DNA from: a bacterium
GTDB taxonomy: Bacteria > Verrucomicrobiota > Kiritimatiellia > RFP12 > UBA1067
Length of the DNA stretch: 33,828 bases
Reading direction: 5' to 3'
NCBI GenBank assembly: GCA_030537465.1
Contig: JAUNMP010000032.1
Coordinates: 1 to 33,828, forward strand
Below, piece by piece: positions 2,009 through 32,754 of the stretch. The translations under genes were made by a program, and so were the position numbers. The notes beneath the pieces are model-generated. The model did no database searches, had not been told where the DNA came from, and saw only the letters and a program-made list of their open reading frames with translations. Every line of letters begins with the position of its first letter. Positions within the stretch are counted from its first letter, which is position 1.

Positions 2009-2078
2009 TCCTAACCCTGAACCTTCAACCTTGAACCCGGACCATTGAACCTTGAACCCGGAACTTGAAACTTCTACA
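2009..2078 (-). repeat. Heptad array A (single arm, GTTC orientation)
   Basis: Nine consecutive 7-bp units without indels run from 2009 to 2071. On the plus strand they read as variants of CTTGAAC, so on the transcribed strand they read GTTCAAG. The next heptad (2072-2078) holds the TAG stop of the DUF1501 gene in phase. The array fills the gap between that stop and the AGGAT ribosome-binding site of the PPC-type gene. Confidence 0.85.
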
Positions 2079-3264
2079 CGTAGATTTCCTTCAGGCGTCC
2101 GTGTTCGGACTGGGGCGGCAGGATGGTGTACTTCTTGCCGAGGTTGTTGGGCAGATTGCCATCGGGATCGATTCCGCAGCGTTCATAGATCGAGCCGAGG
2201 AAATCAACCGGCGTGACGGGACGCTCCACGACCTTCGAGGCCGTCTCGTCGCTCTTACCCACCACGCAGCCACCCTTGAAGCCACCGCCGGCGATGAGGG
2301 CGTTGAAGCACTTCGAGTAGTGGTTGCGCCCGCCGTTCCATGGCGGATCGCGGTCGATGCGCGTCGTGCGGCCGAACTCGCCGCTCACCCAGACGATCGT
2401 CGTGTCGAGGAGCTTCTTCGCCGCGAGGTCCGTCAGCAGCGCGGCCAGCGCTCGGTCGGTCTCGGCGGTGCGGTTCCGCATCGTCTCGAAGTGGCGCTTG
2501 TGCGAATCCCACCCGGGCATGTTCACGGTGATGTACGGCACGCCGTATTCGACGAGACGGCGCGCGGCCAGCAGACTCTGGCCGATGTGCGTGCGGCCGT
2601 AGCGGTCGCGCGTCTCGGGGGACTCCTGCTTGAGGTCGAAGGTCTTGGCGGCGCTGCCCTCGATGATGTGGCGCGCCTTCTCACCGGCGGCGAAGTAGTC
2701 CTTGAAGCGCCTCTTCTCGCCGAAGTGGTCCACCATCTTGAGCAGGTCGAAGCGGCGGGACATCTCCTCGGGTGAGAGTCCGCCCGGAGGCACGATGCCA
2801 TCCACGACGAACTGCGGTCCGTTCGGGTTGCCGCCCGTCACCAGAGGGGCGTACCGATCGCCCAGGAAGCCCACCTCGCTGAAGCGTCCCTTCGCCTGGG
2901 TGAGGATCACGTACGGAGGCAGATCGCCCTGGTAGGACTTGTCGCGCGTCTTCATCATCGCCGTCACGGTGCCGATCGCGGGGAAGACGTCGCCGCCGCC
3001 GGGATTGCGCCCCGTCTGCATCAGATAGGTGGCCGTCTCGTGCCCTGCGTGCGGATGGGTCATGGACCTGATCACGGAGAAGAGGTTCCCGCACTTCGCG
3101 AGCTCCGGCCACCACTCGTGGACGGAGAGCCCCGGCGCATTGGTGGGGATTGCCTTCAGGCCGTTGTTGTAGTCCGGCGACGCATCCGGCTTGGGGTCGA
3201 AGGTCTCAAGCTGGCTCGGACCACCCCACAACCAAATCTCGATGACACTTTGGGCGTGTTTCAT
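2074..3264 (-). CDS. DUF1501 family protein lacking an export signal
   Basis: This 396-residue protein belongs to DUF1501, a family with an alkaline-phosphatase/sulfatase-like fold that is abundant in planctomycetes and relatives. Hallmarks are WLWGGPSQLETFDPKPDA at residues 11-28, SMTHPHAGHETATYLMQTG near 70, the NMPGWDSHKRHF block and the VSGEFGRTTRID block that contribute metal-site-like D, H and E residues. Most family members carry about 40-60 residues with a Tat signal before the GGPSQ motif. Here the motif begins at residue 14 and no signal is present. The ATG at 3264 directly abuts heptad array B and has no Shine-Dalgarno, so the 5' end may have been altered by the insertion. It follows the DUF1549/DUF1553 gene, its usual partner. 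Confidence 0.88.
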   Translation of the reverse strand: MKHAQSVIEIWLWGGPSQLETFDPKPDASPDYNNGLKAIPTNAPGLSVHEWWPELAKCGNLFSVIRSMTHPHAGHETATYLMQTGRNPGGGDVFPAIGTVTAMMKTRDKSYQGDLPPYVILTQAKGRFSEVGFLGDRYAPLVTGGNPNGPQFVVDGIVPPGGLSPEEMSRRFDLLKMVDHFGEKRRFKDYFAAGEKARHIIEGSAAKTFDLKQESPETRDRYGRTHIGQSLLAARRLVEYGVPYITVNMPGWDSHKRHFETMRNRTAETDRALAALLTDLAAKKLLDTTIVWVSGEFGRTTRIDRDPPWNGGRNHYSKCFNALIAGGGFKGGCVVGKSDETASKVVERPVTPVDFLGSIYERCGIDPDGNLPNNLGKKYTILPPQSEHGRLKEIYV

Positions 3265-3390
3265 GTTCAAAGTTCCAAGTTCAAAGTTCCGGGTTTCAGG
3301 TTCAAAGTTTCAGGTTCCGGGGTCAAGGTTCAAGGTCCCGGGGTCAAGGTTCAAAGTTTCAGGTTCCGGGTTCAAAGTTCAAGGCTCTAG
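3265..3390 (-). repeat. Heptad array B (18 perfect-period units, right of DUF1501 start)
   Basis: Eighteen contiguous 7-bp units with no indels fill exactly 126 bp. On the plus strand each begins with G and follows GTTCNRR: GTTCAAA, GTTCCGG, GTTTCAG and GGTCAAG are the main variants. The trio GTTCAAA-GTTTCAG-GTTCCGG occurs at 3300-3320 and again 49 bp later at 3349-3369, a higher-order repeat. The last unit (3384-3390) contains the TAG stop of the four-helix-bundle gene, and the first unit abuts the DUF1501 start codon. Confidence 0.93.
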
Positions 3391-3791
3391 ACGGCTTTCG
3401 GAAGATTGTAGCGGGGGCCGGAGAAGTTGGATGTCGTCAGGGACTTGATCAGGCAATAAATACGAGTGCCAATCGCCTTGGCCTCGGCATGCAGATTTCT
3501 GAATTGTTCAGCATCTATGTATCCATTGTCATAGGCAATGTAGAGCTGTGAGGCAACCTCTCCCGCCGATCCCTTGGCAATCCAGAGAAATTTTATGAAT
3601 TCCTTGTTTCCTGCCCGTTCATACCCCTCTGCGATGTTTGATGAAATGGAAACCACGGCTCGTTGTATCTGATCCCGAAGTCCGTAATCCCTGGAGAAAG
3701 CATCTGTTCGTGCAACGGCATATATCCTCGAAGCAAGAACCCGTCCCTGCTTCCACACATCAATGTCCTCGAATTGCCTGAATGCCGCCAT
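3387..3791 (-). CDS. Four-helix-bundle protein (23S rRNA-IVS / Avd-like family)
   Basis: This 134-residue protein matches the family long annotated as 23S rRNA-intervening-sequence or four-helix-bundle protein, which is related in fold to the Avd accessory protein of diversity-generating retroelements. Visible hallmarks are F-x-D-x-x-VWKQGRVLASRIY at the N terminus, RDQIQRAVVSISSNIAEGYER at about 39-59 (quoted here only as a motif region), and the EFIKFLWIAKGSAGEVASQL helix. The family forms basic pentameric barrels that bind nucleic acid. There is no rRNA here. The gene sits inside an operon, bracketed by inverted heptad arrays, and is clearly less GC-rich than its neighbours, which suggests transfer. 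It has its own AAAGGA Shine-Dalgarno 7 bases before the ATG at 3791. Its TAG stop is part of array B. Confidence 0.92.
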   Translation of the reverse strand: MAAFRQFEDIDVWKQGRVLASRIYAVARTDAFSRDYGLRDQIQRAVVSISSNIAEGYERAGNKEFIKFLWIAKGSAGEVASQLYIAYDNGYIDAEQFRNLHAEAKAIGTRIYCLIKSLTTSNFSGPRYNLPKAV

Positions 3792-3818
3792 TACTCGATC
3801 CTTTCACATTCAAATTCC

Positions 3819-3908
3819 CGAAACCCTGGAACCCGGAACTTGAAACTTGGAACCTGGACCTGGACCCCGGAACTTAGAACCTGAAACTTTGAACTTGGAA
3901 CCTTGAAC
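3819..3908 (-). repeat. Heptad array C (13 units, upstream of the four-helix-bundle gene)
   Basis: Twelve heptads and one hexad (3854-3859) make up 90 bp. On the plus strand the units are variants of CTTGAAC, TTGGAAC, CCGGAAC and CTGAAAC, which is the reverse complement of the array B unit. It starts directly after the GGAGGG that follows the DUF1549 gene stop and ends about 27 bp before the start of the four-helix-bundle gene. Confidence 0.92.
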
Positions 3909-3913
3909 CCTCC
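3908..3913 (-). promoter_or_regulatory. Orphaned Shine-Dalgarno GGAGGG at the DUF1549 gene stop
   Basis: On the minus strand the stop codon reads straight into the motif, as TGAGGAGGG. This arrangement normally serves a gene starting about 10 bases later. Here the next bases are heptad array C. The nearest start (four-helix-bundle gene) is over 110 bases away with its own AAAGGA, and the DUF1501 start is about 640 bases away with no ribosome-binding site. Confidence 0.6.
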
Positions 3914-5302
3914 TCAATGCTGATAGAGGAATTCGCGGGAGTTCAGGAGGCACCAGGCGAGGTCGCGCGGGAAACGCCACTTCTCGGGACCGGGCTTCAG
4001 AACCGCGAAGTGGTCGAGGAGCTGCCTCTTCTCCTGCTTCGTCGGCGCGCGGGAGAGGAATCGCCAGTAGAGGTCCTGGACGATTTCGGCCATGTTCTGG
4101 CGACGGTAGTCCTTGTTGTCGACGATGCGTCCAAGCCGCTGGAAGAGGCTGCCGGAGTTGAGCAGATAGAGACGCTGCTTGGCCGTGATCTCGTTGTGCC
4201 GCTCCGAGAGATGCCCCGTGTCGCGGGCCGGACGCCCGAAGAGCAGCAGGAAGGCATTGGAGATCGACCCATCCTCGATCAGGATGCTTCTGCGCTTCGC
4301 CGGCAGGAAGGTGAACGGCTCGGGGGCAATGGACTGGTAGCTGCGTCCCGAGTCGGTGAGATCGCAGATCACGTCGTCCAGTACCTCGGCGTCGAGGCGA
4401 CGGTACGGGAAGTCACCCGTCACGGGACCACGCTCGTACTGGGACGAAAGCGCGAGTTCACGAAGCAGCGGACGCAGCCGATAGCCGTTGTCGACGAAGA
4501 TCTCGACATGCTTCGGGTCTGGCTTCTCCAGACCGAAGAGCCAATAGTCGACGCGCTGGACAAAGGCCCTGGCGAAATCCTTCCGCCACTCGCCCAGCAT
4601 CCGGTCGACGAACGCGACGCGGCGATCCTCTCCTTCGATCTGGACGATCTCCTCCTTCCACTCGCGCGTATTCTTGATCCGCACGCAGGCGAAGTAGTCC
4701 GCGAGCTCCTTCCGACGCTCCTCCGTGAGATCGTTCCACTCCCAGCCCAGAAAGGTCAGGGCGGCGATCTCGGCAAAGCCATCAGGGGTGCGACGCGCGG
4801 TCGAACGCAGGAAGTTCGCCTCGGCGTCGCGGAAGTCGCTTCCCGTGGAAAGAAGCAGCGCCCGCGCGAAGCGGTCCCACGGCTCGTCGTTCTTCACAAA
4901 GGCGTGAATGCGGCGATGATAGACGTAGACGGCGTTCGGCCAGAGATTGATCGGGAATTCGCTCTTCACGCGCAGAACGTCGCAGAAGCGCATGGACCAG
5001 TAGTCGGCAAAGGATTCCGCGGCGAGAAGGTCGTCAACCAATGCCTTCTTCCGTTCGGGGTCGCGTGAGAACACATAACCCTGGGCCTCGACCTTGGTGG
5101 GGATGCGTCCGGCGAAGTCAATGTACGCCCGGCGCACGAAGACCTCGTCCGAGGCGCGTCCGTCGGACTTCTCCCACGGAGCCACGCCCTTTCCATCCGA
5201 AACGGAGCCTGCCGCGGCGCCGAAAAGGTTCACGCCGGCGAACACCGGCAAACCCGCCGTCGCCACCGATCCTCCAAGAAAACTCCGTCTCGTCCAGCTC
5301 AT
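3914..5302 (-). CDS. Compact DUF1549/DUF1553 protein with Tat signal
   Basis: This 462-residue protein opens with a twin-arginine signal (WTRRSFLGGSVATAG). Residues from about 48 carry the DUF1549 signature (DEVFVRRAYIDFAGRIPT, then RDPERKKALVDDLLAAESFADYW). The second half carries DUF1553 features (YRRLDAEVLDDVICDLT, LLFGRPARDTG and the QRLYLLNSGSLFQRL block). The ending ...CLLNSREFLYQH is typical of the family, whose members usually run 700-1000 residues with a cytochrome-like domain; that domain is absent here. These proteins are encoded beside DUF1501 proteins, and their biochemical role is not established. The ATG at 5302 has AAGGAG 5-6 bases upstream. The gene follows the LamG/TIM-barrel gene by 57 bases. 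Confidence 0.88.
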   Translation of the reverse strand: MSWTRRSFLGGSVATAGLPVFAGVNLFGAAAGSVSDGKGVAPWEKSDGRASDEVFVRRAYIDFAGRIPTKVEAQGYVFSRDPERKKALVDDLLAAESFADYWSMRFCDVLRVKSEFPINLWPNAVYVYHRRIHAFVKNDEPWDRFARALLLSTGSDFRDAEANFLRSTARRTPDGFAEIAALTFLGWEWNDLTEERRKELADYFACVRIKNTREWKEEIVQIEGEDRRVAFVDRMLGEWRKDFARAFVQRVDYWLFGLEKPDPKHVEIFVDNGYRLRPLLRELALSSQYERGPVTGDFPYRRLDAEVLDDVICDLTDSGRSYQSIAPEPFTFLPAKRRSILIEDGSISNAFLLLFGRPARDTGHLSERHNEITAKQRLYLLNSGSLFQRLGRIVDNKDYRRQNMAEIVQDLYWRFLSRAPTKQEKRQLLDHFAVLKPGPEKWRFPRDLAWCLLNSREFLYQH

Positions 5303-10134: not shown

Positions 10135-10692
10135 CTATGCGCTGACAACGGCGGTCAACGACTGGTCGTGGAGTTCCGAGGGGATCACGTCCACGAACTG
10201 GAACGAATGCGCCACGCCCAGTTTGAGAGATTCCGGGGAGGACTTCCGCAGCATGCGGTCGTACCATCCGCCGCCGTAGCCGATGCGTCCGCCACCCCGC
10301 GTGAACGCGAGCCCGGGAACGATCCAGACGCCAATATCCTGTTCGGCGACGGGGTTCACCTCAGCCGGTTCAAGAATATGGCACCGCCCCTCCACCAAGG
10401 TCGTGGTGTTGTCGTAGGCGCCCAGCACATAGACCTTCTCCTCTGCATTCCAGCAGGGCACCGCCACGGTGACGTCGGCGGCCCAAAGCGCCTCGATCAG
10501 AGGCGTGAGATCGATTTCGTCCGGCGAAGCCAGATAGACGGAGAACGGGCGGTGCTTCTCGATCGCCTCACGCACGTCGGGACGGTCCAGCACAGCGGCG
10601 CAAATCTCGTCGGAAGCAGAGTCCCGCTCCTTCGCGGTCAGCTCGCGTCGCAGGGCACGCATTCTCGCCCGTATTTCGTCTTTGCTGTTCAA
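10135..10692 (-). CDS. 5-formyltetrahydrofolate cyclo-ligase
   Basis: This 185-residue enzyme converts 5-formyl-THF to 5,10-methenyl-THF using ATP, in cytoplasmic one-carbon metabolism. Recognisable parts are the N-terminal KDEIRARMRALRRELTAKER helix, the YLASPDEIDLTPLIEAL segment, VPGLAFTRGGGRIGYGGGWYDR (phosphate-binding glycine loop and invariant YDR region) and the end FQFVDVIPSELHDQ. The conserved N-terminal helix begins at the second or third codon, yet the only start that includes it is a TTG (10692) made of the last heptad of array D. The next ATG, at 10662, would cut off ten residues. FolD, acting on neighbouring one-carbon folates, is also encoded in the window. The HAD gene follows. 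Confidence 0.9.
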   Translation of the reverse strand: MNSKDEIRARMRALRRELTAKERDSASDEICAAVLDRPDVREAIEKHRPFSVYLASPDEIDLTPLIEALWAADVTVAVPCWNAEEKVYVLGAYDNTTTLVEGRCHILEPAEVNPVAEQDIGVWIVPGLAFTRGGGRIGYGGGWYDRMLRKSSPESLKLGVAHSFQFVDVIPSELHDQSLTAVVSA

Positions 10693-10831
10693 GGTTCAAA
10701 GTTCCAGGTTCAAGGTTTCAAGTTCAAGGTTCTAGCTTCTAGGTTCAAGGCTTCGGGCAGGATCGTTTAAGTCACCTGAATCTTTGGACTTTGAACCTGA
10801 AACCTGGAACTTTGAACTCGGAACTCTGAAC
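10687..10831. mobile_element. Heptad array D: gene-less inverted pair
   Basis: The left arm (10687-10749) is nine GTTCAAG-type heptads on the plus strand. The right arm (10776-10831) is eight CTTGAAC-type heptads. Neither arm has an indel. They are separated by 26 bp with no gene. Orientation and order match arrays B and C around the four-helix-bundle gene, so this looks like an empty version of the same cassette, or a hairpin element. It occupies almost the whole gap between the RNase D stop and the cyclo-ligase start. Two units, GTTCTAG and CTTCTAG, resemble the variant array G. Confidence 0.82.
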
Positions 10832-16282: not shown

Positions 16283-16345
16283 ATTCAGCCTTCAACCTTG
16301 AACCTTGAACTTTGAACCTTCAACCTTGAACTTTGAACGTTGGAC
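16283..16345 (-). repeat. Heptad array E (single arm, GTTC orientation)
   Basis: Nine heptads without indels occupy 16283-16345. On the plus strand they are CTTGAAC, TTTGAAC and CTTCAAC variants. The array lies between the GH31 stop (16355) and the GGAGG of the thioredoxin-like gene. In transcription sense it reads CAAGGTT repeated, the same orientation as arrays A and C. Confidence 0.88.
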
Positions 16346-31079: not shown

Positions 31080-31087
31080 GTCACCCT

Positions 31088-31123
31088 CTACTTCCTAGTT
31101 TCTACGTTCCTAGTTCCTACTTC
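31088..31123 (-). repeat. Heptad array G (variant unit CTASTTC)
   Basis: Four heptads and one octad (CTACTTC, CTAGTTT, CTACGTTC, CTAGTTC, CTACTTC) lie between the binding-protein and phosphatase genes. The TAG stop of the binding-protein gene is inside the last unit. The unit differs from the main consensus but matches GTTCTAG and CTTCTAG units in array D. In transcription sense it has the opposite orientation to arrays A, C and E. Confidence 0.65.
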
Positions 31124-32754
31124 CTGAACAAGTGCTTCTCGGTCCCGTACGGGAAGTCCGTCGGGCGATAGTTGCCCACATGGTCCCAGGAGAGCGAATA
31201 GGCCTTCGGGAAATGGAGGAAGATCCAGGGACAGTCCTCACGTACGATCTCCTGCGCCGCGCGCCACTTTTCGCTCCGTACCACGGGATCCGTGGACGCC
31301 ATCGCCTCGTCATAGAGCTTGTCGAACGCCGCATTGCGGTAGTTTCCGTGGTTCGCGCCAGGCGAGACGTTCTTCGAATGGAAGAGCTGCAGGAAGTTCT
31401 CGGCGTCCGGATAGTCGCCGATCCACCCCAGCATGAAGAGCGTCACGTCGCCACGGTTCACCGCGTCGAGATACGCGTTCCAGGTCATGTAGCGGGGCTC
31501 GAGACGGACGCCGATGCGGTTGTAGAAACTCTGCATGAGCTCCACCTCCTCGCGGGCCGTCTGGTTCGCGCGGCCGACCGTGATGGTGATCTCGAGCCGC
31601 TTTCCGGTCTTCGGGTCGATGCCATCCGGATAGCCAGCCTCGGCGACGAGGCGCTTCGCCTTCTCCACATTGAACGCGTAGGCAAATGGTGTCTCAAGAC
31701 GACCTTCGACCCCCGGCGGCACGGGACCGTCGCACGGTTCGACGCGGTTGTTGAGGAACCGCTTCCAGGCAGGTCCGTCGAATGCGCAGTTGAGCGCCTG
31801 GCGCAGCTTCTTGTTCCTGCCGAGCACGGGGTCGTCCATGTTGATGCCCACGTACATCACCGTCATCGTGGGATTCCCGTGCAGGTGAACGCCCTTCCGC
31901 TCGAGGTCGCCGGCGAGCTTCCCGTCCGCGCCGACCACCGCGTCCCAGTTGTCGTGCGAGACCTCTCCAAGGAAGTCCACCTCGCGCGAGAGGAACATCA
32001 GCCACTGCGTCGAGACATCGTCCACCACCAGATAGTCGATCTCGTCGTAGGGCCTCGTCTTGATCTCGCCCCAGCCACGCCACGAAGGATCACGGCGGAA
32101 GCGCATCCTGTGGTTGCGCCACCATTCCTCGAGGCGGTAGGGACCCGACCCCACCGCGACGCCGCCGAACTTCACGCCGTACATCTCCACCGCCTCGTGC
32201 GGAATCACCGCGGCGTAGGCCATCGCCATCAACCAGGGGAACACGTGAAGCGGCTTCTTGAGCATGATCTTCACCGTCTGGTCGTCCACGGCCTCGACGG
32301 ACTTCACCGCGTCCATCGTCCAAAGTCCGCTCGACGCATTCTTCTTGTCGGCCAGACGATTGAGGGAGAAGACGACGTCGGCGGCGACCACGGCGCGCCC
32401 CTGCCCGTCCTGGAAACACTTGTCGGGCTGGAATTTCGCCCCCGCGCGGATGCGGAACGTGTAGACGAGACCGTCCTTCGACATCTCCGGTAGATCGCAG
32501 AGACACCCCTTCAGGCGATACGGACGCGCGAAGTAGTCGACCTCGAGCAGCGGCTCGTAGACTAGCGAAATCGCCCGCGACTCGCAGACGCTCGCCGCCC
32601 GCAGCGGATCCATCGACGCCACACGCTCCATCGGACGGCGGAACACCGTCTCCTCCGCTCCCGCCCCCAGAACCAGGGCGAAAACGAACATCCCCAACAT
32701 TCCAAAGTATTTAAATACTTTAGAATCGACACCACGGCACATACGATCTTCCAT
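31117..32754 (-). CDS. ABC transporter solute-binding protein, peptide/nickel family 5
   Basis: This 545-residue exported protein has a signal region at about 15-33 (YFGMLGMFVFALVLGAGA) and the family-5 binding-protein fold. Hallmarks are the early SLVYEPLLEVD block, LVYTFRIRAGAKFQPDKCF, VVAADVVFSLNRL, VGSGPYRLEEW and the ending YPDAENFLQLFHSKN. Binding proteins of this family feed DppB/DppC-type permeases, and a matching pair lies 12 kb downstream. The ligand is unknown. The ATG at 32754 has GGAGG 7 bases upstream. The gene is 18 bases after pgpA, and its stop codon lies in heptad array G. Confidence 0.92.
   Translation of the reverse strand: MEDRMCRGVDSKVFKYFGMLGMFVFALVLGAGAEETVFRRPMERVASMDPLRAASVCESRAISLVYEPLLEVDYFARPYRLKGCLCDLPEMSKDGLVYTFRIRAGAKFQPDKCFQDGQGRAVVAADVVFSLNRLADKKNASSGLWTMDAVKSVEAVDDQTVKIMLKKPLHVFPWLMAMAYAAVIPHEAVEMYGVKFGGVAVGSGPYRLEEWWRNHRMRFRRDPSWRGWGEIKTRPYDEIDYLVVDDVSTQWLMFLSREVDFLGEVSHDNWDAVVGADGKLAGDLERKGVHLHGNPTMTVMYVGINMDDPVLGRNKKLRQALNCAFDGPAWKRFLNNRVEPCDGPVPPGVEGRLETPFAYAFNVEKAKRLVAEAGYPDGIDPKTGKRLEITITVGRANQTAREEVELMQSFYNRIGVRLEPRYMTWNAYLDAVNRGDVTLFMLGWIGDYPDAENFLQLFHSKNVSPGANHGNYRNAAFDKLYDEAMASTDPVVRSEKWRAAQEIVREDCPWIFLHFPKAYSLSWDHVGNYRPTDFPYGTEKHLFRK

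Follow-up and report, generated by a model that had tools for sequence, protein, structure and literature searches.

The closest described counterparts of the element analysed here are the intervening sequences (IVS) of 23S rRNA in Leptospira and Coxiella, in which complementary termini form a stem and an S23p/IVP ORF lies in the loop. In Coxiella the stem is 28 bp long and is cut by RNase III, and the 5′ end of the IVS has three tandem GACAGAT heptamers, variable in number among strains, with an RNase III cut at the first repeat (PMC4990558). Heptamer tandem arrays, mostly intergenic, are also known from other bacteria. According to the passages of the papers used here, Xanthomonas genomes have 70-75 inverted convergent pairs of GGGAATC heptamers each and dispersed heptamers occur in Nostoc as well (PMC4692102), heptamers are described for Nostoc trnL introns (PMC4476775), filamentous cyanobacteria have STRR heptamers for whose intergenic hairpins an effect on coupling or stability has been suggested (PMC2670836), and the TAACTGA repeats of Beggiatoaceae are found for the most part immediately before start codons, where Shine-Dalgarno sequences would otherwise stand (PMC4679880).

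The window, that is, the whole stretch of 33,828 nucleotides that was analysed, carries a cassette that a sequence-only reading had described as a four-helix-bundle gene bracketed by inverted 7-bp arrays. The features of the cassette, of the adjoining operon genes and of other arrays in the window are as follows.

3265..3908, minus strand: whole cassette, 644 bp, between the DUF1549 Shine-Dalgarno/stop and the DUF1501 ATG; not present at 9 orthologous junctions of the genus or at 5 more distant ones
3818..3908, minus strand: 5′ arm, 13 GTTCNRR units, G-rich relative to the gene
3387..3791, minus strand: four-helix-bundle gene, PF05635/TIGR02436 (23S rRNA intervening-sequence protein family), 405 bp with stop, 134 aa
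3265..3390, plus strand: 3′ arm, 18 GTTCNRR units, C-rich relative to the gene; abuts the DUF1501 ATG
3909..3916, minus strand: TGAGGAGG, DUF1549 stop overlapping a Shine-Dalgarno sequence presumably of DUF1501; outside the 5′ arm
3262..3264, minus strand: DUF1501 ATG, directly at the opposite foot of the predicted stem from TGAGGAGG
2074..3264, minus strand: DUF1501 (PF07394), downstream operon gene, Pfam profile match
3914..5302, minus strand: PSCyt2/PSD1 (DUF1549/DUF1553), upstream operon gene, Pfam profile match
2009..2071, minus strand: solo GTTCNRR array of 9 units separating DUF1501 from the next gene; missing in genus-mates
10687..10749 (plus strand) and 10783..10831 (minus strand): gene-less inverted pair of GTTCNRR arrays, 33-bp loop, no four-helix gene
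16290..16338, minus strand: solo GTTCNRR array of 7 units, intergenic

The sequence-only reading had counted 18 units at 3265-3390 and 13 units at 3819-3908, in opposite orientation. The left array does consist of exactly 18 units on the plus strand, each matching at least five of the six defined GTTCNRR positions; the right array, on the minus strand, has the 13 units claimed, with a 1-nt register shift part-way through, and begins at 3818 rather than at 3819. The array runs scored 25.4 (left) and 12.4 (right), whereas the best run in 100 Markov-shuffled versions of the window scored 3.6, and these shuffles, together with the comparison with distant windows given below, rule out a chance origin of the arrays and of the link between gene and arrays. 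A CRISPR array is likewise ruled out, the units in the window being contiguous 7-mers without spacers. The lower GC content of the gene, put at near 49% against about 63%, was found to be 49.9% versus 62.7% for the window, and the TAG stop codon of the gene (3387-3389) lies, as had been noticed, inside the last array unit (3384-3390).

The assignment of the 405-bp gene to the 23S rRNA-IVS/Avd-like family was confirmed by profile searches, in which gene 3387-3791 matched PF05635 (23S_rRNA_IVP) of Pfam with 116 bits (E 9.7e-34) and TIGR02436 of NCBIfam with 117 bits. An AlphaFold model of the protein had a mean pLDDT of 90, and Foldseek returned the solved family members XCC0516 (2GSC) and BT_0352 (2RLD) at the top, followed by the Avd chains of 4DWL and the particle of diversity-generating retroelements (DGR) in 8UB7/8UB8. 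The TM score of the model against Avd 4DWL was 0.64-0.69 by query length at an identity of at most 12%, a similarity of fold only. The fold is the same as that of the DGR accessory protein Avd, but no reverse transcriptase (RT) or template repeat was seen in the cassette. No RT was found on the window contig (C413), the RT matches of the genome lying on contigs C319 and C175, and dependence on an RT in the same genome is not supported, several family-rich genomes (e.g. G035), themselves incomplete, having no detected RT. Purifying selection acts on the PF05635 protein (pN 0.06-0.30 versus pS 0.18-0.87), and the motifs YGLRDQI and S..NI.EG are invariant. Searches of the PADLOC anti-phage defence models (up to E 0.1) and of the PHROG families gave no match for the protein, and phage carriage was ruled out, with 0 matches in 50,697 phage records. 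No transposase or RT was found with the cassette, and no nuclease or recombinase domain within it. Short intergenic inverted structures, many of them without a gene and few with one, are shared with REP/RAYT systems and MITEs; the cassette differs from these in having neither a Y1 nor a DDE transposase and no target duplication, and in that its arms are tandem arrays whereas theirs are unique sequences.

Like the 23S rRNA IVS, the cassette contains an ORF of the PF05635 family, and its complementary termini are predicted to pair into a stem whose loop contains the ORF. Unlike the IVS, its host transcript is a protein-coding operon, each of its arms is a long array with a unit of 7-9 bp, and solo and gene-less arrays are scattered through its genome. 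No rRNA genes were found within the window, the flanks of the cassette being the DUF1549 and DUF1501 genes; the cassette lies outside rRNA and is therefore not filed as a 23S IVS. We read it as an operon counterpart of the 23S rRNA IVS that would work like one.

A transmissible element had been proposed, and a comparison of orthologous DUF1549-DUF1501 junctions suggested as a check. In 9 such junctions from the same genus (62-73% protein identity) only 8-29 bp lie between the genes, and 5 more distant homologous junctions of the genus likewise have 8-29 bp and no cassette; the nearest available empty site is at about 73% protein identity, with none closer (>90%). At L208-L213 the junction is TGAGGAGGCGGAAAGATG or a near variant, and TGAGGAGG directly precedes the ATG; in the window it reads TGAGGAGG-[GTTCAAG...TTTGAAC]-ATG, with 644 bp in between. 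The cassette is thus placed between TGAGGAGG and the ATG, and therefore splits the Shine-Dalgarno sequence from its DUF1501 start codon. As judged from the compared sequences, a 644-bp cassette with approximate boundaries has been gained at the DUF1549-DUF1501 junction; rather than being always present and vertically inherited there, it is missing from the junction in genus-mates, and the proposal of a transmissible element stands. A second, independent case was found in the type III secretion operon of related genomes, in which a cassette occurs at either of two junctions: sctS-sctT has one in L058, L076 and L156 and is empty in L158 and L051, and sctT-sctU has one in L158, L144 and L051 and is without one in L076. 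Cassettes also recur directly upstream of a UmuC/DinB-like polymerase gene in three relatives (L047, L148, L054), and one junction common to four other relatives (L059, L161, L166, L062) holds different cassettes. These recurrent junctions are possibly hot spots.

Such insertion gains would also be expected if the arrays were DNA-level, sub-terminal binding sites of a transposon-like element, the ends of which are synapsed by a pentamer of the four-helix-bundle protein with host factors, RNA pairing being incidental. Inverted end arrays of fixed polarity resemble the clustered end sites of transposons, and the copy in L003 that follows a tRNA-Leu gene has a 14-bp repeat of the 3′ end of that tRNA at its flanks. 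However, there is no sign of target-site duplication, the flanking repeats of 57 two-armed loci being no longer than chance level; the cassette lacks a nuclease or recombinase domain, as stated above; and a pure DNA mechanism does not predict the strong bias in sense within operons (35:0) described below. We consider a DNA-level element of this kind improbable.

Folding the transcript, as had been suggested, gave a predicted stem of about 84 bp between the two arrays of the cassette (z -6.1), the gene forming the loop. In this predicted fold GAGGAGG is unpaired at one side of the stem foot, and the AUG lies directly on the other. Among 59 two-armed copies, the predicted arm-arm pairs had a median of 36, versus 10 when an arm was combined with that of another locus. 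The earlier proposal of a structured-RNA element with the gene in the loop is thus supported by predicted folding and by arm-arm matching. Cassettes with both arrays present that lie between codirectional genes are in the same sense as these in every case (35:0, with the orientation of neighbours taken from the longest ORFs), and the bias is 75:4 when one-armed and array-less members are pooled. Exceptions to the sense-only rule are L322 (a Nostoc edaphicum plasmid) and L324 (a plasmid of Calothrix PCC 7716), which are antisense to both neighbours; the L322 cassette sits between two ribonucleotide reductase subunit genes. The 3′ array ends at most 12 nt from the next start codon in 22 of the 55 two-armed copies, and a Shine-Dalgarno-like motif of their own was present for only 15 of the 55 starts that follow such copies. 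With the Shine-Dalgarno sequence and the AUG at the foot of the predicted stem and with this spacing from the next start, one could envisage a regulatory hairpin domesticated by the host, in which the array stem and the protein tune translational coupling or mRNA stability in the operon, movement being infrequent and incidental, an effect on coupling or stability being also what the cited passages on STRR hairpins suggest (PMC2670836). Yet no one type of gene hosts the cassettes (the hosts include secretion, polymerase, thiolase, ribonucleotide reductase and cas genes), and relatives manage without the insert; we regard a purely regulatory hairpin as very unlikely.

The gene family had been expected to be linked to GTTCNRR heptad arrays in related genomes. 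PF05635 members were gathered from 59 relatives, from GTDB genomes of many phyla and from cyanobacterial plasmids, most of the genomes compared being metagenome-assembled. Tandem arrays of period 7, 8 or 9 were present within 250 bp of 105 of the 141 members, from bacteria and ANME-1 archaea (63/77 in relatives and 42/64 in other members, with an array on either flank), compared with 3 of 46 control loci from the same genomes (ParE 1/21; GIY-YIG 2/25, a set that is mostly uvrC), a difference with a Fisher p of 6e-17; in distant windows the proportion with period 7-9 arrays was 4%. The ParE and GIY-YIG controls rule out that arrays generally accompany small genes or mobile genes in the genomes compared. 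The periods of arrays flanking 156 non-redundant genes were 7, 8, 9 or multiples, never 5 or 6, and the repeat unit varied by locus and lineage (GGGAACA, AAGTTGAA, GGTTAGGT, AACGGCTTG, GAGTCTGTC and others). The link between gene family and arrays therefore held, and its specificity for GTTCNRR did not, the unit varying by lineage and the period ranging from 7 to 9. Arrays also accompany ANME-1 archaeal members (L120), and in Nostoc and Calothrix plasmids they bracket the four-helix gene as well. Detectable arrays are absent in about a quarter of the family members, and 0 of 20 array-less loci lay in rRNA. No description of the link between gene and arrays outside rRNA was found in the open-access literature searched. 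The published passages on STRR, GGGAATC and TAACTGA repeats do not link them to a four-helix-bundle gene, whereas the cassette arrays bracket the gene systematically, and XCC0516 (2GSC) is not named in the main-text passages of the Xanthomonas heptamer paper (PMC4692102). On the Pseudanabaena galeata plasmid pPg_01 (L326) the four-helix gene lies between cas6 and cas4, with very long AAGCTAA-type heptamer arrays; a catalogue of cas loci noted 18 PF05635 genes (PMC3936711). Plasmids 1 and 2 of Calothrix brevissima NIES-22 (L319, L320) both carry the same block of an integrase and an S23 gene.

Within a locus, each arm is the reverse complement of the other (inverted 48 versus direct 11), and the score of an arm against its own partner had a median of 24 versus 6 against the arms of other loci, with 95% in the top 5%. 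The 9-mer units of the Brocadia/Scalindua type score direct, not inverted, partly because they are near-palindromic. With respect to the gene, G exceeds C in 88 of 98 5′ arrays and C exceeds G in 77 of 81 3′ arrays. When mapped on the protein tree, the array period changed 16 times, versus 34 times in shuffles (shuffle minimum 29). Proteins at least 60% identical, encoded at loci with non-homologous flanks, had the same period in 92% of 60 pairs, and pairs below 60% identity in 40-58%; in the orthologous pair L049/L052 both arms had changed together, from GGAGAAC to AGAGAAC. By these measures of likeness between loci, the 7-, 8- or 9-bp unit follows the protein phylogeny, even at unrelated sites. 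The agreement of period with the protein tree, the sharing of the period at unrelated sites and the concerted change in L049/L052 argue against a gene that merely drops into host hairpins.

Such a gene is part of an alternative in which two independent things are combined: the arrays would be hairpins made by the host through slippage, like the STRRs of cyanobacteria, and the four-helix gene a separate element that homes to the loops of hairpins, just as it enters the stem-loops of rRNA. Arrays far outnumber PF05635 genes, as this alternative would have it. Pattern searches and sampled contigs gave 274 matches to three-unit GTTCNRR arrays in the source genome (5.19 Mb, 438 contigs), versus 14 for the reversed pattern, and only 3 PF05635 genes, of which that in the window has GTTCNRR and the other two, which follow tRNA genes, have different repeats (GAATAGT-like and TTTAACTG-like). 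Of 34 array clusters sampled in this genome, none lies inside one long ORF, a mostly intergenic placement shared with the STRR, GGGAATC and TAACTGA families as their cited passages describe them, and 6 are inverted pairs without a gene, such pairs thus being common. Some close relatives, moreover, have such arrays and few or no PF05635 genes, and rRNA insertions occupy either the top or the base of a stem-loop (PMC11270868). The excess of solo arrays fits decay of an element and also host-made hairpins. Other observations are harder to reconcile with host-made hairpins, in that a protein clade keeps its period and unit at unrelated sites and in different hosts, one genome contains several units each with its own gene (GTTCNRR, GAATAGT, TTTAACTG), the arrays have a constant polarity with respect to the gene, and relatives lack both arrays and gene at the site of the window cassette. 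We judge it unlikely that arrays and gene are independent.

Further arrays were seen in the course of these comparisons. A short 7-bp CTAGTTC-like array occupies the gap between two minus-strand ORFs at 31087-31125 of the window. In L003 (G000:C330; 1150-1480 and 1820-1860) the PF05635 gene comes directly after the 3′ end of tRNA-Leu, with TTTAACTG repeats upstream, and a 14-bp copy of that 3′ end (CCACCGCGCCCACC) is found again behind the gene, a pattern like that left by integration at a tRNA. At positions 1-200 of L002 (G000:C273) a tRNA gene is closely followed by another member of the family, which has an inverted array of GAATAGT heptamers 5′ of it. L230, L232 and L238 on other G000 contigs carry more solo arrays, whose periods are 8 and 9 and whose units are GGTTAGTT, TCTAGAGCC and GATTGTGT, and a relative of the same order (G041) has 243 matches of GTTCAGG-type arrays together with 23 PF05635 genes.

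The gene for the PF05635 four-helix-bundle protein and the two inverted 7-bp arrays are one unit. As an explanation of the whole, we favour an IVS-like mobile element, which we consider probable. In the polycistronic mRNA the arrays are predicted to form a long stem that tolerates slippage and whose loop contains the gene. A hairpin between a Shine-Dalgarno sequence and an AUG can bring the two together, and the foot of the predicted stem would reunite the native Shine-Dalgarno sequence (GAGGAGG) with the downstream AUG, so that the insertion would be near-neutral. The array stem is also a predicted duplex for RNase III, as in the 23S rRNA IVS. Avd of retroelements binds RNA/RT; the cassette protein, presumably a pentamer related to 2GSC/2RLD and Avd, may recognise the duplex of its own array and would promote the spread of the element. 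Slippage and gene loss would then leave many solo arrays and gene-less hairpins.

The heptamers of cyanobacteria, xanthomonads and Beggiatoaceae, the movement of the 23S IVS and the role of the IVS protein have so far been unexplained. We put forward tentatively, as one joint proposal, that the cassette belongs to a pan-prokaryotic class of minimal mobile elements, free of transposase and RT, which consist of a four-helix-bundle protein and matched inverted 7-9-bp arrays evolving in concert, and that this class is both the source of the dispersed heptamers (STRR, GGGAATC, TAACTGA) and the parent of the 23S rRNA IVS. The suggested route by which an insert would be tolerated inside an operon is that it folds out and reunites the Shine-Dalgarno sequence with the AUG. 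The link between gene and arrays, with units that track the protein phylogeny, brings the heptamer and IVS puzzles together and lets both be tested on a single small protein and the array that belongs to it; the cassette architecture, found across bacteria and some archaea, may be the origin of many unexplained bacterial 7-base repeats.
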